Origin: Hexactinellida sp. DTS-2022
Lineage: Eukaryota; Porifera; Hexactinellida
Length of the DNA stretch: 64,000 nt
Assembly (NCBI GenBank): GCA_028753945.1
Contig: JAPNXP010000013.1
Coordinates: forward strand, 3,410,001-3,474,000
Direction of reading: 5' to 3'
A program made the position numbers and the translations under genes. Positions 218 to 48,430 of this stretch are shown piece by piece (positions within the stretch are counted from its first letter, which is position 1; the number at the start of each line of letters is the position of its first letter). The notes beneath the pieces were generated by a model, which had not been told where the DNA came from, ran no database searches, and was given only the letters and a program-made list of their open reading frames with translations.

Positions 218-3200
218 CATAGCCTACTCAAATCAGGCCTCACAATAGAATTGGGATTTTGGACCAGGGATGCGGTCGAAGCCGAACAATTGAATCCGCA
301 TTCCTGACTAATTTGTGGTAATTTAGTTCAACTAACTGTATTATATATGAACTTAAACATTTACATTATATCTAACCCTGAAATTAAACTTAACTTCTTC
401 CATTTTAAAGTATCTATATTGACTATTTACGGTAATATATGTAGATTTTAATCAAAGTTAAATACAACATTAACTATGTACTACTAGCAAACATAAATTT
501 AATTACTAAGATAGTTTCCTCAATACACATAAACTGTATTCCGTCATAGAGTGCTTTGTTGTCTCCCGATAACTTCCTATAGGCTTGAGTGTGGTCATAC
601 ATGTGTGGAGTTTTGTTCATCTTGACTTATTAAGTAAACTGGAATTTAAATAAATAAATATACAATAATAAATTTAACTAGGGTATTAAGAGATAAATTT
701 TTCCAATTTACGTTTTTCAATTCCTCTGCATGCAACCATAGAATTGTAATTTTTGACTTTATTTGCTATCATGCAATTTCCTGAAACGAATAGCAGCTTG
801 TGCAGTATTGAAAATCTAACAACATCACAAGAAGGACAAGTATTTCTCCAAACATCACAATCATGGTTATCCACTATAGAATTCAAAGCAAGCTCCACGA
901 GAATTTTCCTCGCTGGCCCTTCTACTAATGCACCCATCAACTCGCTATTATTTTGGATTATAGAAAATATCTTCCAAAGCGTAACAACTGATTCCAATAC
1001 TATTTCTGTTGGATATTTTAGGCGTCCTCGATCAGAGATTTCCAAGAGCTTATACTGAGATACGAATGCTTCATCAACTAGTAAATATTTATCGATGGTT
1101 AACATATCCATACATATTGAACATGGTACAATTTTTTTCAAATATTGGTGTGTGGAGTATCCTGCAATAAAAGCTAAAGATTGGAGTGTTGGTATATCGC
1201 AATCAATAATCGATAGATCTGATATTTCATTTAAGAAAATGTCAAGGTTGATCTCACTGCCCGATGAGGCGCTATCCTTAGAGGAAAAGGAATGAATAAA
1301 TTATTGTACTGAATAATTACTAGAATCAGACTGGCTTGAAAATAGTTTTAAGATGCTAGAAACCTTCAGACGACGTTCGCTATCTATTATCTGAGATAAG
1401 AAACATGGTAATTGGCACCTGACATCATACGGTATAGTCCAAAATGGTGCTCTAAAGGATCTGTCTGCAAGAAAGACGTTAAGAGGTAAGAATAGCCACT
1501 GTTGCCTGTTAGATGATTAGTTATTTGAGGTAGCACAAGAGAGGCATGTCTAAAGCTGGTGAAAGTTTGTTTTCTTAACTTCCCATCTTTCTCAGGTAGC
1601 GATTGCCAAGCTTCTAACCAAAGATTATCTTAGTCAATAACGAAAAGCGTTCGTCATTGAAAGAAAATGGTCGAGATAGTGGGTCATTTAAACGAACATG
1701 TTTAAAAAGGACATTTAAATTTTAAAAATTTCATAATGAGAGTAGAATTTCAACGAATTATGGAGTGTTATTTCTATATGACGCACAACGTAGCTCGTTT
1801 TGAATTGTTAACGCAGCAATGGTAGTTTCATGAATAACTTTTAAAACTAACTTCACATTCTGACGTTCCAAACTAGAAGGATAACATGTTTTCAATGTCA
1901 AGCGTGGAGCTAGTTTGGCCAAGCTTTCCTTCTCAGAATTATAGAGAGTACGGATATCTTGAAAAGAAGCTGAACACAATCTTAGAGGGAAAGAACAGGA
2001 ATCAGATCGAATATCTTCGAAATTAGGCAAGATGAAACTTTTAGCGTCAGATTTCAGGTTCAACCAATTGTTATGAATGGATTTTAATATGTGTACGAAA
2101 TCAAATGTAAGAAAAAGGACTCTACTATTATCACAAGGAGGGGTACCTTAATTCCAGATCACCAACAGGAGAGAACAACTTAAAGAGTTTCACGTTAAGT
2201 GGGTAGTTGTCCGTTGAAATGATCTCAACTAATAAGCCACAAGCCTCAACATCTCGAATACAAGATTTGACAATGGTAAATATCTTCTCTGCAGATAAAG
2301 ATGCACATGGCAATAGACGAACAATGCAGGACCATTTTTTCTGAAGACTCGAGACCATGATAGCGAATACAGTTTTCGTAGGATCATCAGGACAAATATG
2401 GGACCAAGAATTTTGCCTCCCTTGTATGATATATCGGGTTTTACGTGAATTTCATCCATTTGGAGAATAACATGCTTTTGTTCTATAGAAAAAGAATGCG
2501 TTGCTTGCCTAAGGAATGGAAAGAATTCGTTTTCGAGCCCAAAGGAAGAATACAGTTTTTCCAAAGTTTTGAAGTGTGGAAGGGATAGACAAGACATATG
2601 CTGGAGATACTTATAACAAGCAGGAGATATAAGATGAGTTTTGAGAGAGAGAATTTGAGTGAGTATGTTGTATCTACGTCGATTTTTGGGAACAAGACTA
2701 TTTTCTAGCTGGCATTGAATGAATTGAAGTCGATTAAGTTCTGGAGACTCGGATGTTTCTAAATCCGAAGTGGTATGCATAATATCGATGGCTTGTTGGA
2801 TGTGAGCTTTCGCTGAAGATACATGGGACGCAGTAGTTGAGTCAGATTTCTTAGATGATTGACAGTGATGAGGCGAAAAAGACAGTTCATTCAGAACAGA
2901 CTCTAGATGTCGAATATCACTGAGGCAACTTAACGAAAGTTGAAATGTCTCATTTTCACAAAATGCCTTTATGGAAAGATCGAATTTTACTAACAAATAC
3001 ACATCAACGAGGATACGAGAATTCTCCAAATTAGGACGCATAAAAATTAAGCTATGTTCATCTGGGTACCATAATGACCAAGTTTTAGGTATAGAAATAA
3101 ATGATAACTTATCTTGGAGATCCTGAAAACTTGTAATCTTGAACTTCTCATTCTCTTCTGTATCAGTTTTCAAGCTAAGTGTCAAAGCTTGATTGAGTAA

Positions 3201-3917
3201 TTCATCTTCTTTAGAGTCGAGAGACAGGCGAATCCGCTTTGTTGCAGATTGAGAATAGTAAGAGGGACATCCTGGTAGAAAAACTGGTACAGCACCATCA
3301 TTCAGCTTGGGGTTTACTCTTGGAATTTCCATAAAAGTACCGTCTCCATTGGGAACCCTGTGTGTGTACTCGATATCTTCATCCCTAAAATGCTTCACGC
3401 AAACGTATACAGCCTTTAGTTGATCTATATCATCTCTGCGGAGTGTCCGAGCCCAAGCGTGTCTGATTTGGTCTGGTTTCTGGGGCATCTTGAAAAGAGT
3501 AATCCTTTCTTCAGATTTATAGTTGCTTTTGCAACCAGGTGCCGAACAACTAGTTGGCATCTGCTGGAGTTTAATAATTAAATAGTATCTGTTATAAATC
3601 GGGAAAAATATCGACTGGGGAAAAAAAGATAGATATAATATACGAATATTAATTAAAAATAAAATTTGATTTTATAACAGGATATAATGTTAAATATTAT
3701 GGGTGAATTAAAATATCAAAAATTAAAAATGTTTCCGGTCATGAACTAGTTTCTAAAAAAAGATTACCCAATTTGTAAAAAACCTTGTTGTATTCAAGTA
3801 CCAGGTCAACAAATTTATTCCAAAATATAGGTTTCAAAATTTTGGTATTCCGGCTTCGACCGCATCCCTGGTCCAAAATCCCCATTCTATTGTGAGGCCT
3901 GATTTGAGTAGGCTATG
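218..3917 (-). mobile_element. P-element-like (THAP) DNA transposon 1
   Basis: The ends are long terminal inverted repeats. Bases 218-284 match the reverse complement of 3851-3917 at 66 of 67 positions, beginning CATAGCCTACTC and including GGACCAGGGATGCGGTCG. A perfect 7-bp direct repeat, GGTATAC, lies immediately outside each end (211-217 and 3918-3924). The interior holds one minus-strand THAP transposase gene. This is the best preserved of five related copies in the window (others at 11344, 18091, 33223 and 63138). The right end abuts the iteron array of the neighbouring MULE, so this P element landed just outside the MULE end. Confidence 0.93.
686..3560 (-). pseudogene. THAP-domain P-element transposase, frameshifted
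   Basis: The first 443 codons from the ATG at 3560 are open. The N-terminus is a THAP zinc finger (C2CH): Cys5 and Cys10, then a CVKH motif near residues 54-57, and an AVPVF box that corresponds to the AVPTF box of THAP domains. An LQMDEIH motif near residue 365 fits the first catalytic Asp region of P/THAP9 transposases. The frame is lost around 2360-2420. Recognisable coding continues in other minus frames at 2131-2358, 1758-2063, about 1384-1470 (an LQTDPLEHHFGLYR motif of the P family) and 686-1141 (C-terminal region). I infer a transposase of roughly 900 residues broken by several frameshifts, normally a DNA-binding transposase acting in the nucleus on the 218/3917 TIRs. The C-terminal 151 codons align with 34993-35370 of P element 3. 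Confidence 0.9.
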
Positions 3918-4376: not shown

Positions 4377-5975
4377 TTATGTAAATATCTCCATAATTGT
4401 ATTTATTGGAGTACGACAAATTGGACAAGGTTTTTCTTCATTGAGAAAATGCTGTCCACAGTTATTACACAAATTTGCGTGTCCACAAGGAACCAATGCG
4501 AATGAAAGTTCCTTGGTTTCGCAACAAATTATGCAGTCGTTTGGTGAACTTTCTTCTTCATCACTATACATATCTTCCATCTCAACCGTGTATTGTGAAT
4601 AATCTGCGGGAATATTTTTACCCTTTCGTCCAATAGTAAGTGAGACAGCAGTCAAATATTGTTCAGTTGAAAATATTCCATTCTCTAACTTTTCTTTATA
4701 TTCCTCCCTCCGTTTTGCTTTTTCGATGATATTTCTTTTTGTAGGTCTTGTTATTTGTAGATCATTCTCTAGCCTCATATATTCAGAAGCAAAATCAGTG
4801 ATTACCTTCGATAACTCGGTTAAAAATTTCCATACATTGGGATGATGCACTTTTATACTCGATTTCAATGATTTGTGGAACGACTCACATCCATTGTTCG
4901 TGGCAATCCGAGATGAATAGACAGACAAATCCTTTTCTCCCAATATCCAAGTTTTTCTAATGTATTTCTTCAATTTATTGACAAGTTCCTTATCAGTACC
5001 ACATAGTTCAAATACTTGTGCCTCTAATACAGAAAAAGTGCTCGTGATTTCGCTTTGTGGTAATAGAGGCAAAGCCATTAGCTTTCTCAACCAATCGGCA
5101 TATATTTCTTGTGTTTTGTACAATTTTCCCAGGCCCAGTATTTGAGTTTTTTTCCAAATTGCCTGGGTGAAATGGAACCAGCATCCTATCATTTTTATTT
5201 CCGGAAAAAGATACATAAATGCGTTTCTGGGGGCTTTTTCAAAATCACTCACCGCTACTTTTGGACTAAATCCAGGAATGAGGTCAAGTAATTTCAAAAT
5301 TACTGCTGAATATAGCCCTTCAGTTTTCTTTTGCATTAAAACGTATATAGCAGGGATACAGTGCCCACGAAATGGAACGAATATTGTGAAGAGTTGATAA
5401 AAGATAGACGGGACGGTGTAGAAAGTGCCATCAAATTGTATAATGTCAGCATTACTCGTTTTCATGAGCATGAAGTTTGCTGCTAAAATGACTGCCACTG
5501 CACCATCATGATTAACAGTTCCCCGATACAAATGTGTAAATGGAGAAGCAACAATAAGTTTGGAAAAATCTTCTGCGTCTTTAGGGAGAGGCGGAAATAA
5601 ACATCTCCTTCTTTTGCACATACTGCTTTCAATTTGCTGAAATGATATCATATTTTTCAGAGGATCTTCTCGACAGGTTTCGTTAAAAACTTCACGCAGT
5701 CTCTCAGAAGAAGTTTCGGCTGCCCGTTTCAACTTATTTCTCAATGAATATACACCACGTTTATACGCTTCCTCTCCATGATCATGCGCAGACGTAGTGA
5801 TCAGGGAGTTAGTAAAATTATCAATTTTAGCATATCCTGGACAACCAAAACTTCTGTTAAGTGTACATCTTACATATGTAAATTGCTGAGAAGTCCTCAC
5901 TTTAACGTACAGAAAACCTTCTGATAAATAATTTAAAGAATTTAACTTCTTTCCTTCAACCAAAGTGACTTGCAT
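4377..5975 (-). CDS. MULE transposase with FLYWCH finger and C-terminal RING
   Basis: This is an uninterrupted 532-codon frame starting at the ATG at 5975. An N-terminal FLYWCH-type finger is formed by Cys37, Cys45, His64 and His66. The MULE/Mutator catalytic core follows: FDGTFY (Asp182), AVSDFEKAP (Asp244), CWFHFTQA near 265, and NNGCESFHKSL (Glu364), which together give a plausible DDE triad. A basic stretch lies at about 412-430. A complete C3HC4 RING finger ends the protein: Cys481, Cys484, Cys497, His499, Cys503, Cys506, Cys517 and Cys520. The expected role is cut-and-paste transposition in the nucleus; the RING suggests E3 ubiquitin ligase activity (inference). It is flanked by inverted iteron arrays and is the only large intact transposase in the window, so the copy may be young. 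A broken relative with the same FLYWCH, MULE and RING order lies at 47241-48430. Confidence 0.93.
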   Translation of the reverse strand: MQVTLVEGKKLNSLNYLSEGFLYVKVRTSQQFTYVRCTLNRSFGCPGYAKIDNFTNSLITTSAHDHGEEAYKRGVYSLRNKLKRAAETSSERLREVFNETCREDPLKNMISFQQIESSMCKRRRCLFPPLPKDAEDFSKLIVASPFTHLYRGTVNHDGAVAVILAANFMLMKTSNADIIQFDGTFYTVPSIFYQLFTIFVPFRGHCIPAIYVLMQKKTEGLYSAVILKLLDLIPGFSPKVAVSDFEKAPRNAFMYLFPEIKMIGCWFHFTQAIWKKTQILGLGKLYKTQEIYADWLRKLMALPLLPQSEITSTFSVLEAQVFELCGTDKELVNKLKKYIRKTWILGEKDLSVYSSRIATNNGCESFHKSLKSSIKVHHPNVWKFLTELSKVITDFASEYMRLENDLQITRPTKRNIIEKAKRREEYKEKLENGIFSTEQYLTAVSLTIGRKGKNIPADYSQYTVEMEDMYSDEEESSPNDCIICCETKELSFALVPCGHANLCNNCGQHFLNEEKPCPICRTPINTIMEIFT

Positions 5976-6160: not shown

Positions 6161-6412
6161 TTCGTACGTTGGTTTAGTAATCCCAGGGCCAAAGAAAATC
6201 CTCGTCGCCCCAATTTACGGTAACTGATAAATACAGCTCATTAGTACGGAGTAATGCTAATATTATTCGGTTGAACCAGAATATATTTCCCAATTATGTA
6301 GTTGATATTGGAGTTAGGACCAAAATTCAGAATTTGGTTAGCAATTGATTCAGTTACAACCAAATATATTTGCTTAATAGAGTAGCTATTTTTTATAACT
6401 AGGTCTATTAAC

Positions 6413-6839
6413 CTGACCAAACGCGTCACAAGATGCTAACTGTATCCCCTTGAGGTCTGTACAACCCCAATTAACAGCGTGCGAGTGCCCTGAGTAAGTT
6501 TGTACACACAGCCCATTTCTTCCATCCCAAAGAGCTACTCGCTTGTCTGCAGAACAAGAGAGAATGACCTGAGAGTAAGGGAGGAACTGAACACATGTGA
6601 CAGCTTCGGAATGTCCCCTTAAGGTAGAAAGGCACTTTCCGGCCTCTACGTCCCATATCTTTATGTGGTGGTCTTGTGACCCACTAGCTAAGTAGCCCCC
6701 TCCCCAAAACCATGAAACAGACCAAATGCCATGAGTATGTTCATTCAGCGTCTGTACGCAAGATCCTCTACTGAAGTCCCAAATCTTAACTGAGCTGTCC
6801 CCAGAACCTGTAGCCAAACGGTGGCCCGAAGGGTGAAAC
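6413..6839 (-). CDS. SPAG16: SPAG16/PF20-like WD40 protein, downstream exon (B)
   Basis: The exon codes for about three and a half WD40 repeats: GSGDSSVKIWDF, GSQDHHIKIWDV and SADKRVALWD, ending at the signature ASCDAFGQ. This order and wording match the C-terminal propeller of SPAG16/PF20, a central-pair protein of motile cilia and sperm flagella. The acceptor is TTTGCAG followed by G-TTT-CAC; its leading G completes the split AG|G (Arg) codon left by exon A at 58523. From there 142 whole codons run to CAG|GT at 6413/6412. Exon B is therefore 427 bp. The open frame upstream of 6839 is intron read-through. Further downstream exons are expected at lower coordinates but I could not find one in 1-6412. 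Confidence 0.88.
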
Positions 6840-6931
6840 CTGCAAATTGCAAATAAGAATTTAATGTAAACAAATCTAAAATTCAGCTGTGCCGACAGCA
6901 TTTTTCTGGAAGCACTATTGGTCAACCACAA

Positions 6932-9799
6932 ATATTAGTGCCTCAAAAAGAAAATGCTGTCCAAAACTGAGAAGGAATAATTTAATAAAGATTGATATTT
7001 GATATTTCTAAATAATTATTTCTATTGAAACATCTTGGGTACCATTAGACCCTGGACCGTTATATATTATGAATGTGGTAGATGCTACATGTTGTGTAAT
7101 TATCTTAATATATCTTAATGCTTTTGGTGGTTCAAATATGGATTGTGCTGTAATTATGCTGTAAGTAAGTCAAAATTATACCATAAAAACAGGGTTTACA
7201 AGATAAACCGGGTCAAATATATTTTGACTGGGTCCAAGCTTACTGTAGCGACATCATTAATCTTCTAGAGGCACAATCAAAAAAGAACCAATATACAGGA
7301 CCCCATAACAGTGGCTTAGCACCTGGAGATATTAAATATTAATAGGAATACATTTGCCTAGTTTTTTAATGGAAAAATAGAAAGAACATCCTTAGGAGAA
7401 CAAAATCTCTAAATTTGAATTATAACAGAGTCATATACCAGAACACAAATTTCGATATAACTGACGAACAAAAAAGAAATTGAGAAATCGAGCTTATGTA
7501 CATTTCCAGGAAATTCTCTATCGCCTGTCCAAATTTGAAATCTCTATCACCAATGGTCTAGTGAAGCGAGTGCGTACGGCCCCCGGACGGATGGAAGTCG
7601 GACAGAACGATTATAGAACTGTACATTATAGTATAAAACTATAGTAGGACCTTAATATGACGTTTGTTAATAGAAGAAGCACTCTAAAAATCACTGTTTG
7701 AAATAATCCCAAAATCTCTAAATGGAAATTTCATGCTAGCGGGACAGAAAGAAACAAAAATTCTCCGTGAAAATTATACACATTAAAGAATATGTATAAA
7801 ATAGAACTTATTAGGAAATGATAGCTCCCGAAACGGTGCGCGCAACCTGAAATATCTTATCGCATTCCTTTAACAAATTGTGTTGCTGTGCACTTTTCTG
7901 AAGGTATTTTTGAAATGATTAAAGTCAAAATTCTGTATAAACGCAGGTATTATAGTGTTTTTGTTTATCTTAAATTTAATACAATATCTGTTCAGTTCAC
8001 TGTATTTTTGTGAAAAGGAGTATACTGTCTATTTCTTAACTTATCGTAACTATAGGAAAAATTTTTAAATCCATGGTGCCAATAAAAAGTAGGAATAATA
8101 ACTAGGATTGAGTAAATTATACAGTACACAATATTTTGTAAGAATACTATTTAAGCGATACGATTGTAGGCAATATCCCGTCCTGAGAACTGATGCTAAA
8201 ATGGATTACATCAAACATAAAGTCACTGTTAATGACTCAATTGAAATTAAATTTAATGTTATTATGTAATAACATAACAACATTTCATTGTAAAATGCAT
8301 TAAATGAATTATTATATAAAAGTAGTCATATTTACATACCGAAGGTAATTATCATTTTGGATTTTAATTAAATTAATACCAAAATTAACCGTAAATGTAT
8401 AATATTAAGATTTTCCAAATTTTCGCATTTATTTATAAATAAGCAAAATGTGGAATAGTAGCGTCAAAATCTAAGATTTCGTGACAAACCTTAAGTTTTA
8501 TGCCTGATTCTGATACTTCATGGCATATCTCGCAATTTATGGTTCCAATCCGGTCTCGAAAATTTGGGCAAACTTTTTATAGGGACAAATTAAAAGGTCC
8601 TCCGGCAATCATTTTGAAAAATTAAGGCCCCTATCTGAACATTTCATAAATTGAGATTATAGTGTTTTTGAACAGTATACAATAAGTACTAGCTGCACTG
8701 AAAATTTCAACTCTATCGGGACTATACTTTTAATGTAATAACCTTTTGAAGATTCCTACGCCATTCGGCACAATGGGAGGTCCATTCTTTAAACTATTTT
8801 TTTAAGGGATTTGAAGCATATATTATCTTATATACATGCAATAACCTTTTGACTGGCTATGTAGCAGTGTATTATACATCCATTTGTAAATGCGCTCCTA
8901 ATCCTAGTCTGATCCAATTTTAATACGCCTAAATAATCAATTAATGTTACGGCATATGAGAGGATTCCAAATTTTCGCGCTCCTAATTTCAAATTTTTCC
9001 AAAAATCATGCTCCAAAAGGAGCGTCTTGCGCTCCTGAATAAATCCTTGCTATGTAGCATGTCTCCATGTAAATCTCGGTAATAGCTAAATTTAGGTCTA
9101 CATATAGCGTGAACTACAAGATTCAGACAATTTTGAAAAGAAAAACGATGCGTTGATGTCAATAACCTATATGCAAATAATAAATTATGTATAGATATTG
9201 TGCAGACTGATACCCATTCCTTATCAACTGCTATTTTAAGCCCCTGTGCATAAGAACAATGCTATTTACACTAATCAAATCAGGCCATCAATCAAATCAA
9301 ATATTAGAAATATTTTGTTAAATTTATATACGTATGTTATAATAAATTGATTTTTGAGTGACAAATGGTTTGATTTGATTTCTAAACTAAATGATTGTAG
9401 TATTATATTTCATTTGAAATTTCCTTATCATTTTCAAACTATTTTGCATACTTTAGTATAGTCTCCCAGTATAGAGATCACTGCTCTGATTTGTCATTGC
9501 TATTTTTAGTTGTATTTCATCTACAGAATAAATTTTGAATAACTAATAGCTGAAATCTTCAGGATAAGTGTCTCATTTGGTTACATATTTATGTTTGTTT
9601 GTTTGTTTGTTTGTCCGGATTGTATGAAAGTGATAGGAGAATAAACACTGCAAATATTTGAGATAAAGACTAACTTACATATGTTATGGTAAGTTGATAC
9701 AAGAAAAAGCATTGGAATTTGTAGAAAAATTAGGATTTTTATAAATGTCTAGCATCGAATGGCTGGCTTAAAGTTTCAATATCCATAATTTTCAGGTAA
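6932..9799. other. Intronic AT-rich sequence, no gene seen
   Basis: No credible coding sequence was recognised. It contains a short TTTG microsatellite near 9595-9615 and a diverged dispersed repeat at 8880-9040, listed separately. Confidence 0.6.
8880..9040. repeat. Unclassified dispersed repeat, copy 1
   Basis: It shares ordered blocks with 24200-24345: GCTCCTAATCCTAG, a TTTTAATACGCCT-like block, AATTAATGTTACGGCAT and CGCGCTCCTG. No ends or coding potential were recognised. Confidence 0.5.
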
Positions 9800-10395
9800 T
9801 CAACTGCATTATATATTCAACATGTATGAGACAGGCATATTTTTCCCGTGCCCTTCCAGACAACACTATGCATTAGCAGACACAAGAATGTACTAGAGGA
9901 AAACGCCAAAGGATTGAATGACTTGCTTACTTTGTGTTATTAATACATTGGGAGAGTTTGAGCAGACATTGATCATAGGACACTATCTAAACCCTAGATG
10001 TATTAAGAACATGTCCGTTTCATTTACCGGTAACATATCGTGCAAATAAGAAAGCCTGAATGACTAGTACATTATATCATGAGTAGCTAAATTCTTTTGA
10101 CACGAAATGCTCAAACAAAATCAGCATATTTTAGTATTTTTAGATAATGCTCCATGTCATCCACCAGCAATTTCTCTAACGAAGATAAAATTGATATTTT
10201 AACGGCAAATGCCATTTCTGTTTTACAACCACTTGATCTGGGTATTATCCAGGGAATTAAGTGGCATAACTAAAACGTCATCTCCTTCGTGTGAAAAGTG
10301 AAATCAATAACGGTAGTGGGGCTGAAACAGTAGCGCAAAACGTTAATATCCTAGATGCATGTTAATAGATAGCTGCTGCAATAAAGGAAATACGT
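9800..10395 (+). pseudogene. Tigger/pogo transposase fossil
   Basis: Broken frames carry the ordered landmarks of a pogo/Tigger DDE transposase. Near 9819 the NVDETGLFF motif reads N-M-Y-E-T-G-I-F-F, so the first catalytic Asp is lost. FLDNAPCHP with the second Asp lies at 10143-10145, followed by LTKIKLIF. A QPLDLGIIQGIK-like motif with the third Asp lies at 10235-10237, just downstream. Many stops and frameshifts separate these blocks. It is distinct from the Tigger at 15146-18020, whose second-Asp motif reads LLVDNCPAH. Ends were not located. Nonfunctional. Confidence 0.75.
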
Positions 10396-10415
10396 CCTAG
10401 GACTGTACAGTAATG

Positions 10416-10468
10416 TCTCTAGATGTGGATCCAGGAGAGCGGATCTCTAGATGTGGATCCAGGAGCGC
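10416..10468. repeat. Tandem duplication of a 28-bp unit
   Basis: TCTCTAGATGTGGATCCAGG occurs twice at a 28-bp interval, followed by AGAGCG and then AGCGCG. Confidence 0.8.
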
Positions 10469-10879
10469 GAGACGTTCCTTTGGATCATGGTTTTGGGAAA
10501 ATAAGACCAGGATTAGGAGCGTGTCTAAAAATGGCAGTGTAATACACTGTGTGGATTAAATTAAATTCGAAATTTGAAAATTACGCACAAAATGTAAATG
10601 ATGACATTGAAAGGCTTAAGAATTGCTCAACATTACCTCGGAACGGAACATTTGTGGTAATGTGATTTGAAGTCCTCGCGCATATATCCATATATATAGT
10701 AAATTCAGGTTAATGACAATTTAGGAGAATGGGTATCGCGTATTCAGGTAAAAGTGAAATCCCCGAGCTCCTAAGCATTGATGAAGATTAACCAATTGAG
10801 CAGCCAGGAATCGAGAAGTCTACTTTCAGAGATGCATTATACAGGATTTCAAATCTGAAAGTATTCTTAAAACATCAGT

Positions 10880-14167: not shown

Positions 14168-15566
14168 ACACACGGACAAGCTTTTATATCTATAAATTTA
14201 TCTGTTCAAATTAGCATTAATAACCAAATCACTTACTCTATCCTTATATAAACATATAACTAGCCTAGGATCCACGGATATAAATAGACAGCTAGGGGCC
14301 ACTAATCAAGAACGACATTTAATTTGAAAAGGAACATGCTTGAAATACAAGCGAGGGCCGCAGGCCAGAGTACAAGTTGTAAGGACGCCGCGCGCAGAGC
14401 AGAGGAGCAGCTTGTACTAATAAATATGTGTGGTTGAAACACCATGCTAGTTTCAATAATCCAATAAAACTTGAGTATAGTTGGAATAATCCAATAAAAC
14501 TTGAGTTATTTGGAAAAACTTGAGTATATTTACAAATTAGTTGAGTATTGTTGAGTATTTTTGGAATTTTCCCTATTATGTGTTCAAACTTCAAACTAAT
14601 ATAATATGGCAAATGTTAATGAAAAAGGGTTTCTTTAAAAGAAAATTTACTGTTACGACAATTCCGAAGGCCATTTGCATCGCTCCCGAGGTTACCATAA
14701 TTCCGGGATTCTACTGTTTACACAAACAATCAAACTAACAAACAAGGGAGAGATATATATATATACAGTAGAACTCGGCTAAGACGTACCACCCTGGGAA
14801 ACAAGAAAAGTACGTACTAACCGAGGTAAGACTTATCAGTGTGCATAATCCACAAGTCGAAAACTGACTTGTTCACGATATGAATACGATGTATGGTATA
14901 CAAGGGTATAACTTACTTAACGATATAATTAAGGCAGGGCCGGATTATCCATAGGGCACTAGAGGCACTGTGCCCCAGGCCTACGAAGGTTTGGGGGCCT
15001 ACGAAAGTTGGGAGCCTAAAATATATACAGTGGAACTCGGATAAGACGTACCACTTCGGGAAACAAAAATTCGTATGTAATATCCTATGTACTATCCTAC
15101 TGTACGTCTTACTTATGAGAATAAATGTTTGGTTTGAAAGAAATACAGTCAACATCCGATAACTCGAACATTCGTTATCTCGAACGAATTTTCATTTTCC
15201 CTCGTTTACTAGTCGATTTATATTAAAAAAACCGTTCGCTATCTCGAATGCCGGTTAACTCGAACATTCTCTATCTCGAACAGATTTTCGGTTTCCCCTG
15301 AAAAATTACAGCCGTTTAACTCGAATTTTGTACTATTTTAGAATGATTTTAAGAAACAAATTGTAACCACTGCCCTCAATTTATTTCTAACCTGATCGTA
15401 GTCCTAGTCCAATCTGAAAACCCCGAACCGGCCGCTATGAACATCTGGCCTACCACCTTATATATACTAGTTACAACCTTTTTAGCCAGCAACAAAACAA
15501 TATTTATTAAAATTTCTGTCAGAAATATACGTATATTTGTTTTTAATTACTGTTGCTAATCATTAG

Positions 15567-16018
15567 TTATATATCTACTACTAATAACTGTCTCTGCAAA
15601 TTCTCAATAAAGTTACTTGAACCTTCAAAGAATAATGTGCATGGGACTTGTATTCCGTCGCCGTGACCAAGATTAACAACCTTGTCCTTTATGAATACAT
15701 GGCATGAACCATACTTGTCTGCCCGAAGGAAATAAAAAAATTGTCTTCGCAAATTTTCCATTGGTTCCTTTTGGTAAATGCCCAATTACTTCATTATTCT
15801 GTAAAACACAAACTGCGTATTTATCTACGACATTGTCAGGCTCTATCGCAGCTTTGGAGTTTTTCCCCAGCATGTGGTTTCCAACTCTTATAAACATGGA
15901 AACCTTTCACGAAAGCATCAATTTTGAATTCTTTCAAATGAATCAAATCGACTGACAGTTGCTCTTCGCTTGATACAGCTTTTCCTTCGTCAGAAACATA
16001 TTCGTTTTTGCTTGCCAT
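15567..16018 (-). pseudogene. HIRAN-like accessory protein of the Tigger element
   Basis: From ATG 16018 the frame reads a polar leader and then AFVKGFHVYKSWKPHAGEKLQ. The sequence continues in a second minus frame with AIEPDNVVDKYAVCV and VIGHLPKG, and in a third with FYFLRADKYGSCHVF, NLGHGDGIQVPC and a final stop at 15567. The order W-x-P-x-x-GE-x-L, then E-P-D-N-x-x-D-x-YAV, then GHLP is the layout of a HIRAN domain, a DNA-end-binding fold found in HLTF/Rad5 proteins and stand-alone invertebrate proteins. Two single-base frameshifts break about 150 residues. It is the only minus-strand gene within the TIRs and faces away from the transposase. A role in transposition or end protection is inference. 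Confidence 0.72.
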
Positions 16019-16254
16019 ACTTAAATTATTATAAGTATCTTCAAAACCCAGCGGCCATGTATTTCATTGAAAAATTCCTTGATCAGTCTCAAAAGTGAAA
16101 ACAAGTGGTTGGCTATAATCTAAGCTATAAAACCTAAGTTTTGATAGCGAAGTATGATGATTAGAATCACAATCATATTGTGTTAATGTGGTTATGAATT
16201 AGTGTTTGAATATTAGATCTGAATCTCAACATATTTCGTTTGTTTGGATAAACA
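16019..16254. promoter_or_regulatory. Divergent intergenic spacer of the Tigger element
   Basis: The 236 bp between the two start codons must hold both promoters if the genes were ever expressed. No specific box could be assigned. Confidence 0.4.
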
Positions 16255-17800
16255 ATGGCGTCTGCAGCAACACGTAAGATATGTCACAAGTCTCTCAAGG
16301 AAAAGTATGATGCCCTCAAAGACCTCATGAAAGGTGCATCAAATAGGAGTGTTGCAAAAAAATACAACATCCCGAAAAACACTCTTTCAACATGGGTGAA
16401 GAACAAACATAAGATTATGAGTTCATTGAATGGAGGAAATAATCCTAAAAGCAAGAAATTACGAACAGGTATTCAAAAAAAATTGGATGAAGCTATATTT
16501 AAGTGGTTTTTGTCTGCAAGAAGCCAGGATGTACCGATTGGAGGAGTGGTTTTTAACTTTTTAAAGCAAAGACATTGGAATATGCTAAAGAGATTGGGTT
16601 AGACGATTTTCAAGCATCTGATGGTTGGATTCGCCGTTGGAAAAAGAGGTACAATATCAGTTTCAAAACGATATCAGAAGCTAACTCTGTGACTGCTGGA
16701 ATGGTCGCACCATGGAAGGAGACATCATTGCCGACCCTACTATCCAACTACCATTTGGAAGATATATACAATGCAGACGAATATGGTTTGTTCTATGAGT
16801 GTCTACCAAGTAAGAGTCTTCACTTAAAGTCTGAGAAATGTGTTGGGGGAAAACACAGCAAAGTACGGTTGACTGGGATGGCAGCTGCCAACGCAGTTGG
16901 CGACAAGTTACCTATGTTTATCATAGGTAAATCCAAGAAGCCACGGTGTTTTGCTGGACTTACGAACTTACCTTGCCGTTACCGAGGACAAGGAAAGAGC
17001 TGGATGGACAGAAATTTGTTTGAAGAGTGGGTGCGAGAGCTAGATTCGAAATTCCTGGAAGATAGAAGAAAATAGCCCTTCTTGTTGATAATTGTCCTGC
17101 CCATTCACATGTGGACAACCTATAGGCAATCGACCTGGGTTTCCTTCCACCCAACACTACCGCGAGTACTCAACCAATGGACCAGGGAGTTATTCGCAGC
17201 CTTAAAGCAAAATACCGCTTCCTGGTTGTCCAAAAGTACATCAGAGCATTAGACAGGAGGATGCCATTACCAAAGATTAATATTATCAGTGCAATGAGCA
17301 ATTGAGCATGCTTGTAAGGCATGGAGTATGGATACAAAGACGACAGTGATCAACTGCTTTACGAAGGCAAACATGTCAGAAGCATTACAGGAGCAAGCAT
17401 TGCAAGATGATGATGACCCATTCAAAGAACTCATAGAAGAAATTGATATACTACGAGAAAAAGATCGAGATATTGTCCCACTTAATGTAACTGTGGAAGA
17501 TTTAGTGGCAGTTGATGATGAAGTTACTGCCACAGCACCTATGGCATCAGAAGAAGAAATACTTGCCGAGCTACGGGGAGAGGATATCTTAGAGATTTAT
17601 GATGAAGAAATATGTGATGATTCTCCGTCGAAACCAACGCAGAACGAAATAAGAAATGCCATGGATCTGGTTTTCCAATATTGCTAGTTTTCAAGTAATG
17701 GAGATGAACTCCGTAACATTCACTAATCCTGAACAAAATGCTTGAGTCGGAGTTTACAGAGCGAATGAAGCAGATGACATTAGATTCATATTTCGTATGA
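16255..17800 (+). pseudogene. Tigger/pogo transposase with C-terminal PIP-box
   Basis: ATG 16255 opens a CENP-B-type helix-turn-helix region (SLKEKYDALKDLMKG, SVAKKYNIPKNTLSTW). A one-base deletion near 16560 shifts the frame into DDFQASDGWIRRWKKRYNIS, the second HTH. All three catalytic aspartates are readable: NADEYGLFY (about 16776), LLVDNCPAH (17087-17089, after another shift) and QPMDQGVIRSLK (17180-17182). A stop and further shifts follow, then an acidic tail (17404-17620). The last codons (17771-17797) read QMTLDSYFV before TGA at 17798. Q-M-T-L-D-S-Y-F fits the PCNA-binding PIP-box Q-x-x-L-x-x-Y-F, known at the C-terminus of pogo transposases. At least three frameshifts and stops make it inactive. 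Confidence 0.9.
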
Positions 17801-18372
17801 AATAGAGAGATAGTATACTAGTATAGTCGAGTTAGAATGCATCGAGATATAGAGATAGAATAGCATTGACCAGACATGGCTCAGTTTTTGTTCAGCTTCC
17901 ACGAATTGAGTAAAATACAATTTTGTTACATTAAATGGTGGCCATCCGTTAACTCGAACATTCGCTATCTCGAACGGATTTTTCATTCCCCTGAGGGTTC
18001 GAGTTACCGGATGTTGACTGTAGTACGTATTAACCGAGTGTACTTCTTATCCGAGTTCTACTAACTGGATTAACAAATTAAAAGTAAATCCATAGCCTAC
18101 TTTACATAAGCCTAACAGTAAACTACGAGTTTGGTACGATGGATGCGGTCGAAGATGGGGAATTTTAGGTAACCACAATATTCTGTCATGATTAGATTAT
18201 TTACAATAAACCATAATATTTGAATATGAGTTGCATTATATGATATCCAACATGAAATTTTCTTTATTTGTTTCTTATACTAATTTTTCTAATCACTTTT
18301 CAACATACCCACTCCCATATAATTATTTACGATTCCTTTTGTTATAGTATATTAGCTACTACATCAATCAGA

Positions 18373-20658
18373 ATGCTGAATACATGCTCTGCTCCCGGTT
18401 GTAAGAGTAACTATAATCCAGAAGATCGTATTCCTGTATTCAGAATGCCTCAACAGCCGGGTGAATTAGAGAGTCTTGGATTCGAGCTCTGCATAGGGAA
18501 GATGTAGATAATCTGAAAACTGTTTTGTATGCGTGAAACATTTTAGAGAAGAGTATATTGAGTACACCCACAAATTTCCTACGAAGATGGGACTTACCAC
18601 GAGCTTCCACACAAAAATCAGTACCAGTTTACTAACCAGGGTGTCCATCATACTACTCTTCACAGCCTACTACAAAACGCAGAAGTCTCTCCTTCGATTC
18701 GAAAGAAGATGAACAGCTCCAGCAGGCCGTAGCACGTAGCTTGACATCACAGACTGAAGAGAAGGAGAAGTATTTGATACACGGTTTTCAGGATTTGAAA
18801 GTGAAGTTAACTTTTTTTTATTTACCTAATTGGTCATTATGGTTTCCGAATGAGCAGAGTCTAATTTTTATGCGTCCTCACTTGCTGAATTCAAATATTT
18901 TGGTCGATGTTTACTTGATAGTTGAATCCGATTTGTCTGTAAAAGCATTTTATAACGGTGATGTTATCCCTCTCTCTACATGCTCTTTAACATGCTCTAT
19001 AAGTGATACTCGACTGCTTGAGTCAATTTTAAGTGAAAATTATGAATTTTACACCAGCCTTGTTCCTCTAATACCTCTAATACCGAATGTACATACGCTA
19101 CCCTTATTTCTATGGTAATGGAACATTTACAACAGCAATTGAAAAAGTACCTACTTCTGATGAATTTTCCTATTGTTCAGAGCTTTCTGGATTTCAATTC
19201 ATTCTTTGTCAGCTAGAAAATAGCCTAATTCCTAAAACAGGCGCAGATATAATTTGATCTCTCAAATTTTGGCACTTAAACCACATCTGATTTCGCCAGC
19301 ATGCTACAAGTATATCCAGAGTTTTAAATACCTTGTTTATTTATCTCTTCCACACTTCCATACCTTAGAAAAGCTATATCACTCTTTTGGACTTGAAAAT
19401 GAATTCTTCTTTCTTAAACAAGTGACGAAATTTTTTTCTATGAAAGCATGTCATCATCCAAATGGATGAACTACACATCAAATCGGACATATCTTACAAA
19501 GTAGGAAAGCTAGTTGGTTATAATCTAAATCCTGATGATCCAACCATAACAGTATTTGCTATCATGGGATAGTCTTCATAAAAAATGGTCCTGTATTGTC
19601 CGTTTATTGCCATGCGCATCTATTTCTGATGAAAAGATATTTTCTGTTATATAATCTTGTATTGAAGATATTGAACTTTGTGGACTACTGGTTCAGGTAA
19701 TTTCAACTGATAACTATCCTCTAAATGTGACCTCTTCAAATGTTTTCCCCTGAAGCTAGAGACTCGAGTACGGAGTACCTCATCCTTATGTATCAACAGG
19801 CCACTTTTCCTTACGTTTTATTTTGTCCACATTCTAAAAACGATTCGAAATAATTGGCTCAATCAAATATCAGACAGCAAAACATTATCTTATCCTGAAT
19901 TAGACAATTTTCACACAGATTACTGTTCCTTTCCTTTGAGATTATGTTCAGCTTCTTTTCGGGATGTCAGAGTCCTTTACAATTCAGGGAAACCAAACTT
20001 GCCCAACGCCTAACTTTGTATTCTTGTTACCCTTAGATATTCTGGAGCGCCAAAATGTCAAACTTGTCTTAAAAGTTATTCATGAATCAACAGTAGCTGC
20101 TTTAGCTGTTCAAAATGACCTACGTTTTTTTAAGGCCGGTCTTGGTGGAAATTTTGGACCAAGAGTTTTTGGAGTTACACCACGTTTCGGGTCGGCCTGG
20201 GCCTGTGCAGTGTTGAGTTACACCACATTATGGGTCGGCCGCGGCCGCTGCAGAGTTGAGTTACACCAAGGCCGCACTGAGTTACATCAAGGTCTCAACC
20301 TTAAAAAAACCCTGACCTACGTTGTCTAGAATTACAAACTGATACGTCGGATTTTATCTAAATTTTTCTCTCGCTCTGGAAAATGTTTAATGTAAACATT
20401 CCATATAACCATGTCCGTTTAAACGATGCATTCTATAGCCCATTCGTGGGTAATGAAGAGCGTTTTTCTTTTTTGAGGCGAGTTGTCTATTGTTTAGAAG
20501 CCTGGAGATCACTCCCTGGAAAGGAAGGAAAATTAAGTCTCCAAACTTTTACAAGCTTTGGACATGCTTGTGTTGCGTTACCCCAAATAACTAGCCATCT
20601 GTTTGAAAATTGTGGATTTTCTTATCTCCTACCATCTTTCTTACAGACAGACCCATAG
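18373..20658 (+). pseudogene. THAP transposase, heavily frameshifted
   Basis: From ATG 18373 the THAP domain starts CSAPGCKSNYNPEDRIPVFRMPQ but shifts frame within about 30 codons; the CKHF-type half lies near 18535 in another frame. Later pieces match P element 1 in order: EEKEKYLIHGFQDLKVKL (about 18762), NWSLWFPNEQSLIFMRP (about 18827), ISPACYKYIQSFKYL (about 19289) and LERQNVKLVLKVIHE (about 20041). The C-terminal block NIPYNHVRLNDAFYSPF follows at about 20395 and ends at FLQTDP before a stop. A separate insertion at 20127-20312 interrupts the frame after LR. Nonfunctional. Confidence 0.88.
20127..20312. mobile_element. Insertion with 11-bp target duplication inside P element 4
   Basis: TGACCTACGTT occurs exactly at 20116-20126 and 20313-20323. 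The insert starts with T-run AAGG and ends CCTT A-run, so its ends are also weakly inverted. Inside, GAGTTACACCA repeats with GGTCGGCC-rich GC blocks. Homology to P element 1 resumes directly after it. It could be a SINE-like retroposon (T-run) or a MULE-type MITE (long duplication). Confidence 0.75.
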
Positions 20659-47240: not shown

Positions 47241-48430
47241 TCACAGGAACTGCCGAACTGCTTGAACTATTTCACTTCTACAAGTTGGGCATCTATCACA
47301 ACGAGCTGTTAATTCTCTTGCACAAAAACCACACAAATTTTCATGACCACATGGTACTAACACATGAGGTTCGTGTCTTGTTTGCAAACATATAGTTGGA
47401 TATGTTCAGATTCACCTTGAGTAGATGAATTATCATCTGAATATTCATATTCAATTATATTTTCGTCAGGACTTTGGTAACTTATCTCTAAAATTTGTTC
47501 TTCAAGGACTTTAAACATATACGGTAGTTCTTCTTGCGGCAATAATGGTAGTGCTAATATGCAACGAAACCATGTATTAAACTCTTAATTGGTCCGATAG
47601 AGGCTAGATAACTCAACTTTAGTTAGTCGAGCCAAAATTGCTTGAGTGTAATGAAACAAAGAGCCAGTAATTTCGATTCCGGGAAAATAATTTCGAAATG
47701 CCTTTCTTGGTGCATCTTCAAAATCACTCATCGCGATATTTGGTTTAAAATTTGGAATAATTTCAAGGATCTTTCTAACGCAAGCAGAGAAAAGCTCTTC
47801 TGATTTATTAGTCATTAATATGTGAATCATCGGAATTGCATGTCCGTGGTGAATGGAAAAAATTGTAAATAGCTGGTAGAAGATTTTGGGAACAGTGTAA
47901 AATGCACCATCGAATGAAATTTCTTTACAAGACTCAATTGACATCATTTTTTGCGACATAAAAATGACTCCAATACTACCTCCTAAGTTCACGGTTCCCC
48001 TATGAATATTTGAATACCTATTGTCGATTAGAAATTCGCAAAACTCTTCTGCAGACTTTGGCATTCCAGGAAGTTGGAGCTTACGCCGTTTATAGTATAC
48101 ATTATGGATCTTGCATTTCGATACGTTATTGATGCAGCTTCTGCTTCATGACGACATGTCTTATCGAAAACTTCGCGCAATCTATCACTTGAAGTCTCAG
48201 CGGCCCTCTTTAGTTTATTTCTGAGGATTATTTGGTTTGAGTTATAAACATGTGTTTCATGATTATGTTCTTGTGTCTTGATAAATTTGTTCGTCATTTT
48301 GTCTATCTTACCAAACCCTTTGCACTAAGATTTCTAAAGAGAGTACATCTGAGATATTGAAATTTTCCATTGCATCTTACCTTAGAGTAAATGAAATTAT
48401 CATGCTGAATGTTATAATGATTTAGTTTAT
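47241..48430 (-). pseudogene. FLYWCH-MULE-RING transposase, deleted and frameshifted
   Basis: Reading down the minus strand: a FLYWCH-like start (NGKFQYLRCTL, then EHNHETHVY), NKLKRAAETSSDRLREVFDK, and a catalytic block FDGAFYTVPKIFYQLFTIF ... IAMSDFEDAPRKAF ... LFHYTQA. At about 47560 it resembles residues 300-325 of MULE 1, then jumps to an acidic linker. About 130 residues including the third catalytic Glu are deleted. After a frameshift the RING finger is readable at 47393-47255: LVPCGHENLCGFC and CDRCPTCR, stop at 47241-47243. Domain order equals MULE 1, so the RING fusion predates the split of the two copies. Nonfunctional. Confidence 0.88.

Follow-up and report, generated by a model that had tools for sequence, protein, structure and literature searches.

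Whether a transposon of the Tc1/mariner class can carry a second gene of its own, for a protein that would look after the DNA ends created when it moves, is the question raised by a locus of the sponge Hexactinellida sp. DTS-2022. The locus lies in a stretch of 64,000 nucleotides (assembly GCA_028753945.1, contig JAPNXP010000013.1, positions 3,410,001 to 3,474,000 of the forward strand), which is called the window here; all coordinates are positions in it. A 2,875-bp element spans 15146-18020, and a single copy of it was examined. Between one pair of terminal inverted repeats (TIRs) it holds two divergent genes on opposite strands, one for a transposase of the pogo superfamily and one for a small HIRAN-like protein. 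This arrangement was proposed in an earlier note, made from the letters of the DNA, and it was borne out: the transposase domains exceed their Pfam cut-offs, the TIRs and the TA are in place, and the Pfam family HIRAN (PF08797) is matched, below its cut-off in bits, at an E-value of 5.5e-5. That the HIRAN-like gene lies inside the element is close to certain. The best explanation of the locus as a whole, on which confidence and doubt are evenly balanced, is a dead two-gene transposon of the pogo superfamily that jumped into a TA of a small miniature inverted-repeat transposable element (MITE), with the HIRAN gene resident in the element and serving a role in its life.

The ends of the element are sharply marked. 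The end sequence is CAGTCAACATCCGRTAACTCGAAC, and the TIRs are of the type CAGT...TAACTCGAAC. They had been described as being of perfect quality, which is nearly but not wholly the case, as 23 of the 24 bp are identical. Within the 64 kb, the 13-bp end CAGTCAACATCCG is found exactly only at 15146-15158 on the forward strand and at 18008-18020 on the reverse strand, with two mismatches in the next-best site. A TA stands on both sides, giving the combination of TA target-site duplication and short TIRs that is typical of the Tc1/mariner-like pogo superfamily. The sequence CAGTGGAACTCGGATAAGACG, which marks the end of a small MITE, occurs in the flanks at 15028 on the forward strand and, with three mismatches, at 18043-18063 on the reverse strand, and the element appears to be nested in one copy of that MITE. 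A relative of this MITE starts at 14766. When the two flanks were joined, its part from 14803 to 14837 gave a local alignment that spans their junction, with 31 of 37 columns in agreement, as is expected if everything between the two TAs arrived later. In the relative, however, the TA has lost its T, a portion of the stretch can also be aligned to another part of the MITE, and global alignment with the joined flanks did not place it at the junction, all of which weakens it as an empty site; by its sequence it may lend weak support to a later insertion. MITE-like ends CAGTGGAACTCGGATAAGACG were seen at three places (14766, 15028 and 18063) and are similar to Tigger-type ends.

The transposase gene is recognizable in spite of its decay. 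By reading, it has at least three frame changes between 16255 and 17684 (at about 16545-16584, 17069-17072 and 17295-17310) and one in-frame stop at 17123. The fragments match CENP-B_N with 37.9 bits, HTH_Tnp_Tc5 with 29.5 bits and DDE_1 with 41.5 bits and, for its second half, 44.8 bits, each of them above the Pfam cut-off. The second and third catalytic aspartates are 30 residues apart (DD30D), a spacing that falls within the DD29-36D given for Tigger in the narrow sense and is also compatible with the DD29-59D/E of pogoR (both in passages drawn from PMC7386202). The only strong solved relative of the transposase was the DNA-binding part of CENP-B (45.4 bits; the next match had an E-value of 0.012); CENP-B is itself described as derived from pogoR (PMC7386202), and the set of solved structures holds few transposase relatives. 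On these sequence features, the element is a member of the pogo superfamily, of Tigger or pogoR type. The name Tigger, used in the earlier note, stands for the class, and as a narrow label it is left undecided because the features tested fit Tigger and pogoR alike (in the same passages of PMC7386202).

Beyond these domains, a possible C-terminus of the transposase, QMTLDSYFV followed by a stop, was picked out by its resemblance to a PIP box. The loosened form of the PIP-box pattern that was used occurs 22 times in the 127,996 six-frame codons, six of them directly before a stop. The PCNA-binding pattern is printed as Q-x-x-I-x-x-F-F in a part of PMC4549789, according to which the pogo transposase of Drosophila binds PCNA. 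Pattern searches found no relative of the transposase in viral contigs or plasmids. A general NADETG pattern drew none from the viral contigs, and this copy, which reads NADEYG, would itself not match it; the two viral stretches with VDNCPAH were both unrelated short readings.

The 9-bp motif TAWCTCGAA has 11 exact matches in the 64 kb, against 1.1 expected from shuffles of the whole window. Nine of the 11 lie inside the element, where the left end has six of them and the right end three, and within groups they follow each other in steps of 16 bp. These sites are probably where the paired DNA-binding domains of the transposase were bound. A CENP-B-box pattern was dropped, since its four matches in the window are close to the 3.8 expected, though two of the four fall in the subterminal repeats.

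The HIRAN-like gene runs on the opposite strand from an ATG at 16018 to a TAA at 15567, in three frames that have to be joined, with no sign of introns. Its two breaks, one near 15857 and the other in a run of T near 15736, both lie beside short A/T runs and can be the result of decay or of sequencing error. A scan for bacterial-type promoters in the region between the two genes gave two, against 1.4 expected, and thus nothing above chance.

The assignment of the small protein to HIRAN was made with profiles. In a scan of 24,736 Pfam families, the longer join of the gene matched HIRAN with 22.8 bits (E-value 8.4e-5, profile positions 7-65 of 96), and no other family was listed for it; the domain had been named before the search. 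The N-terminal 93 amino acids gave the best result, 23.4 bits with an E-value of 5.5e-5. The middle fragment alone scored 18.9 bits (E-value 0.0014), the joined reading with X at the joints 17.9 bits, and a shorter reading with another join 18.1 bits. Failure in HIRAN profile searches had been named in the earlier note as grounds for dropping the idea, and the outcome was mixed: the similarity is significant by E-value, but the curated gathering cut-off of 24.7 bits lies above every reading, and because of this the broken gene is named HIRAN-like.

Further comparison relied on five bacterial HIRANs (L001-L005), chosen by the motif EPDNxxDKYAV, which they have in common with the sponge protein and which was matched by one viral-contig stretch and four prokaryote stretches. 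Against Pfam HIRAN they scored 50.7, 50.2, 32.4, 32.3 and 24.0 bits, so four of the five pass the cut-off; L001 adjoins a HipA_C gene. They differ from the sponge protein, with identities of 21, 25, 25, 16 and 22 percent. A profile of the five alone found the HIRAN chains of HLTF at E-values of 0.095-0.13, and when the sponge protein was added these became 0.0075-0.0099, the match rising from 16.2 to 19.7 bits. The bacterial structure 3k2y behaved in the opposite way, going from 0.00027 to 0.15. The bacterial profile gave the real protein 31.4 bits, compared with at most 10.3 in 5,000 shuffles, and placed the gene first among the frames of the window (28.6 bits; the next had 5.6). These last two controls are partly circular because the bacterial HIRANs were picked by a motif of the protein under study, whereas the Pfam result is not.

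With HLTF itself (2mzn, 4s0n, 5bnh, 4xzf and 4xzg), the likeness lies in the core, DPNNPYDKNAI in HLTF and EPDNVVDKYAV here, followed by GHL. The differences are that the sponge protein stands alone, with no motor domain, and that direct comparison fails: a phmmer search of the solved chains gave no match at E-values up to 10, HLTF included. The bacterial L002 likewise misses HLTF in a direct search. As judged from its sequence, the HIRAN-like protein is not recognizably a copy of HLTF. Invertebrate proteomes commonly include stand-alone HIRAN proteins with this kind of pattern. No relatives were confirmed in viral contigs (7 and 10 pattern stretches), phages or plasmids, and only the bacterial HIRANs were found by motif. 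The pattern GFHVYxxxWxP occurs in no viral-contig stretch, and its spacing, one residue longer than that of the HIRAN-like protein, would miss the protein itself.

How much of this is new was judged from known systems. The element shares with the pogo superfamily, including Tigger and pogoR, the TA duplication, the short TIRs, the CENP-B_N, HTH_Tnp_Tc5 and DDE_1 domains and the DD30D spacing (passages of PMC7386202 and PMC9219625), and its length and TIRs are within the ranges reported for arthropod Tiggers, 1018-4225 bp and 12-33 bp (PMC9219625). It differs in its extra divergent gene; the passages of PMC7386202 drawn on here describe one or two open reading frames (ORFs), encoding transposases. 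In parts of PMC9179366, two other kinds of cut-and-paste elements are described with a transposase and a separate gene, for a YqaJ exonuclease in ISL2EU and for a Myb-like DNA-binding protein in Harbinger; these differ in belonging to another transposase superfamily and in having a second protein that is not HIRAN. Within the Tc1/mariner class are the ciliate elements Tec and TBE, which qualify the statement that Tc1/mariner elements normally have one gene: it is sound as a rule, but these carry three ORFs, one of them in the complement in Tec. Their accessory genes encode a site-specific recombinase in Tec and include a small ORF and one for a zinc finger protein in TBE, and they differ from the sponge element in a DD34E transposase and in being known only from ciliates (all from passages of PMC7325037). 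A HIRAN gene of a fish iridovirus, whose top identity is 39.1 percent, to a fungal protein, indicates that HIRAN genes occur in other mobile settings of eukaryotes (excerpt of PMC6563503). Among titles, the beginnings of abstracts and a few passages from the literature on HIRAN and transposons, no HIRAN-carrying pogo element was found.

A helper role in the handling of ends, of the kind that the biochemistry of HLTF brings to mind (excerpts of PMC11237066), is plausible. The HIRAN domain of HLTF binds the 3'-OH at ends of single-stranded DNA, and HIRAN function is lost in the N90A-N91A mutant; the domain also guides HLTF to 3' ends, among them those released in a Cas9 cleavage complex (PMC11237066). 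In the numbering assumed for HLTF, N90-N91 would align with the D-N of EPDN in the sponge protein, so that one of the two residues is kept. In the sponge element, the paired DNA-binding domains of the transposase would sit on the TAWCTCGAA arrays while its DDE domain cut the element ends. The small HIRAN protein might then bind the 3'-hydroxyl ends laid bare on the excised element or in the donor gap, where it could shield them or steer host repair and replication enzymes to them, which would favour reintegration or the regain of a copy; alternatively, it could bar host enzymes, HLTF for one, from these ends. Granted that the gene is resident, the case for such an end-binding helper seems about as strong as the case against it.

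The balance leans, by a little, to a resident gene of the element family over a passenger of this copy, because of the complete coding sequence, in which nothing points to introns, the divergent layout, the similar decay and the lack of any trace of a separate insertion. The decay of the two genes is of the same order, with two lesions in about 450 bp of the HIRAN-like gene and four in about 1,430 bp of the transposase gene up to 17684, though these are small numbers.

Several observations pull the other way. Everything comes from a single copy, itself broken, so the fixation of HIRAN in the element family is a supposition. Searches among viruses, phages, plasmids and prokaryotes gave no second copy or close eukaryotic relative, a silence that says little because these collections are not meant for animal genomes. 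The window holds a second pogo-like transposase fragment (9789-10046) with no HIRAN signal nearby. The G+C content at third codon positions is slightly lower in the HIRAN pieces (0.27-0.36) than in the transposase pieces (0.32-0.46), in small samples. None of the five HIRAN readings reaches 24.7 bits, and their range of 17.9-23.4 reflects the different ways of bridging the frame breaks; taken singly, the first fragment and the last, and with it the C-terminal third, match no Pfam family at E-values up to 1; NCBIfam gave no match and PHROGs weak ones only. A structure model of the first 93 residues was poor (mean predicted local distance difference test score, pLDDT, of 61), and its match to HLTF (4s0n) was ranked 32 with a non-significant E-value of 4.8. 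As for the role, isolated HIRAN inhibits the reaction of HLTF on the Cas9 cleavage complex (PMC11237066). In HLTF, the end-binding domain works within a motor protein, and the functional residues of HLTF are only partly kept in the HIRAN-like protein.

The strongest rival to a resident gene is capture, in which this copy, or a minor subfamily, took up a stand-alone HIRAN gene of the host through faulty gap repair and the gene played no part in transposition. With only one copy known here, with capture of host sequence by animal TIR elements on record (in parts of PMC8277862 and PMC2572040), and with a usual Tigger length of 2-3 kb (PMC9219625), this has to be taken seriously; as the captured piece would have to be a complete gene, showing no trace of introns, divergently placed and decayed to the same order as the transposase gene, it is the less probable course. 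That a separate HIRAN-bearing mobile element was inserted later into a Tigger copy is unlikely: nesting is common in the window, where several other transposon readings are present, but no inverted or direct repeat around the HIRAN-like gene goes beyond chance. An inverted repeat framing it (15551-15563 and 16157-16169) was equalled in 86 of 100 shuffles and the one direct repeat (15518-15542 and 15989-16013) in 17 of 60. That the protein is not HIRAN, with a chance resemblance around EPDN..DKYAV, is very improbable, since the sub-threshold scores, the poor model and the unmatched first and last fragments that speak for it are set against an E-value of 8.4e-5 with no other of the 24,736 families matched and the domain named beforehand, the gain in the HLTF match, and the shuffle control, partly circular as it is.

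Taken together, the structure is real and its parts correctly read, in one decayed copy, with the functional role put forward as a proposal. More tentatively, and with doubt somewhat the greater, there may be an invertebrate pogo/Tigger lineage in which HIRAN is a permanent second gene whose product takes care of the 3' ends of transposition. Such a lineage would be a two-protein element of the Tc1/mariner class, and stand-alone HIRAN genes of animals could stem from it. Should the pairing prove general, a transposon of this class would supply its own partner for binding DNA ends, the origin of stand-alone HIRAN genes in animal genomes would be explained, and there would be a bearing on the coupling of pogo elements to repair and replication, as in the link of pogo with PCNA (excerpt of PMC4549789). 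The features of the element are listed in Table 1.

Table 1. Features of the two-gene element and its insertion site, in window coordinates.
Feature	Position	Strand	Remarks
Left TA target-site duplication	15144..15145		Sequence; weak support from the MITE relative across the joined flanks
Left TIR, 24 bp	15146..15169	+	23/24 match to right TIR
Left TAWCTCGAA array	15160..15325	+	Sites at 15160, 15176, 15240, 15256, 15272, 15317; 16-bp steps within two groups
HIRAN-like gene, about 149 amino acids	15567..16018	-	Two one-base frame breaks; no internal stop in joined reading
Intergenic region between divergent genes, 236 bp	16019..16254		Possible shared promoter region; position only
Pogo-superfamily transposase gene, broken	16255..17684	+	CENP-B_N, HTH_Tnp_Tc5, DDE_1, DD30D
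Possible transposase C-terminus, QMTLDSYFV-stop, PIP-box pattern	17771..17800	+	Pattern match only; needs further frame changes
Right TAWCTCGAA sites	17950..18006		17950 (+), 17966 (+), 17998 (-)
Right TIR, 24 bp	17997..18020	-	23/24 match to left TIR
Right TA target-site duplication	18021..18022		Sequence

Other mobile elements are spread over the window. Inverted repeats that are 49 nt (82 percent) and 25 nt long surround the pogo-like fragment at 9789-10046 (tblastn E-value 0.005) within 8865-10549, where no clear TA duplication was seen. An unbroken ORF of 532 amino acids on the reverse strand (4377-5975) combines a MULE transposase domain with a RING finger (zf-C3HC4_3) at its C-terminus; these two exceed their cut-offs, a further FLYWCH match stays below, and the ORF reads as a transposase fused to a finger of the ubiquitin-ligase type; a second MULE transposase fragment, of 159 amino acids, lies at 47585-48064 on the same strand. 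A P-element-like ORF of 443 amino acids on the reverse strand (2229-3560) matches THAP with 49.3 bits and also, below cut-off, a TNP-like RNase H. Two short readings on the forward strand (18268-19118), about 250 and 720 bp past the Tigger-class element, appear by eye to be parts of a relative of that ORF; the first matches THAP at an E-value of 0.15, and the second does not match it. A WD40-repeat ORF on the reverse strand (6386-6931) is likely a host gene, and axonemal Pf20, among many WD40 proteins, matches it along one continuous stretch.

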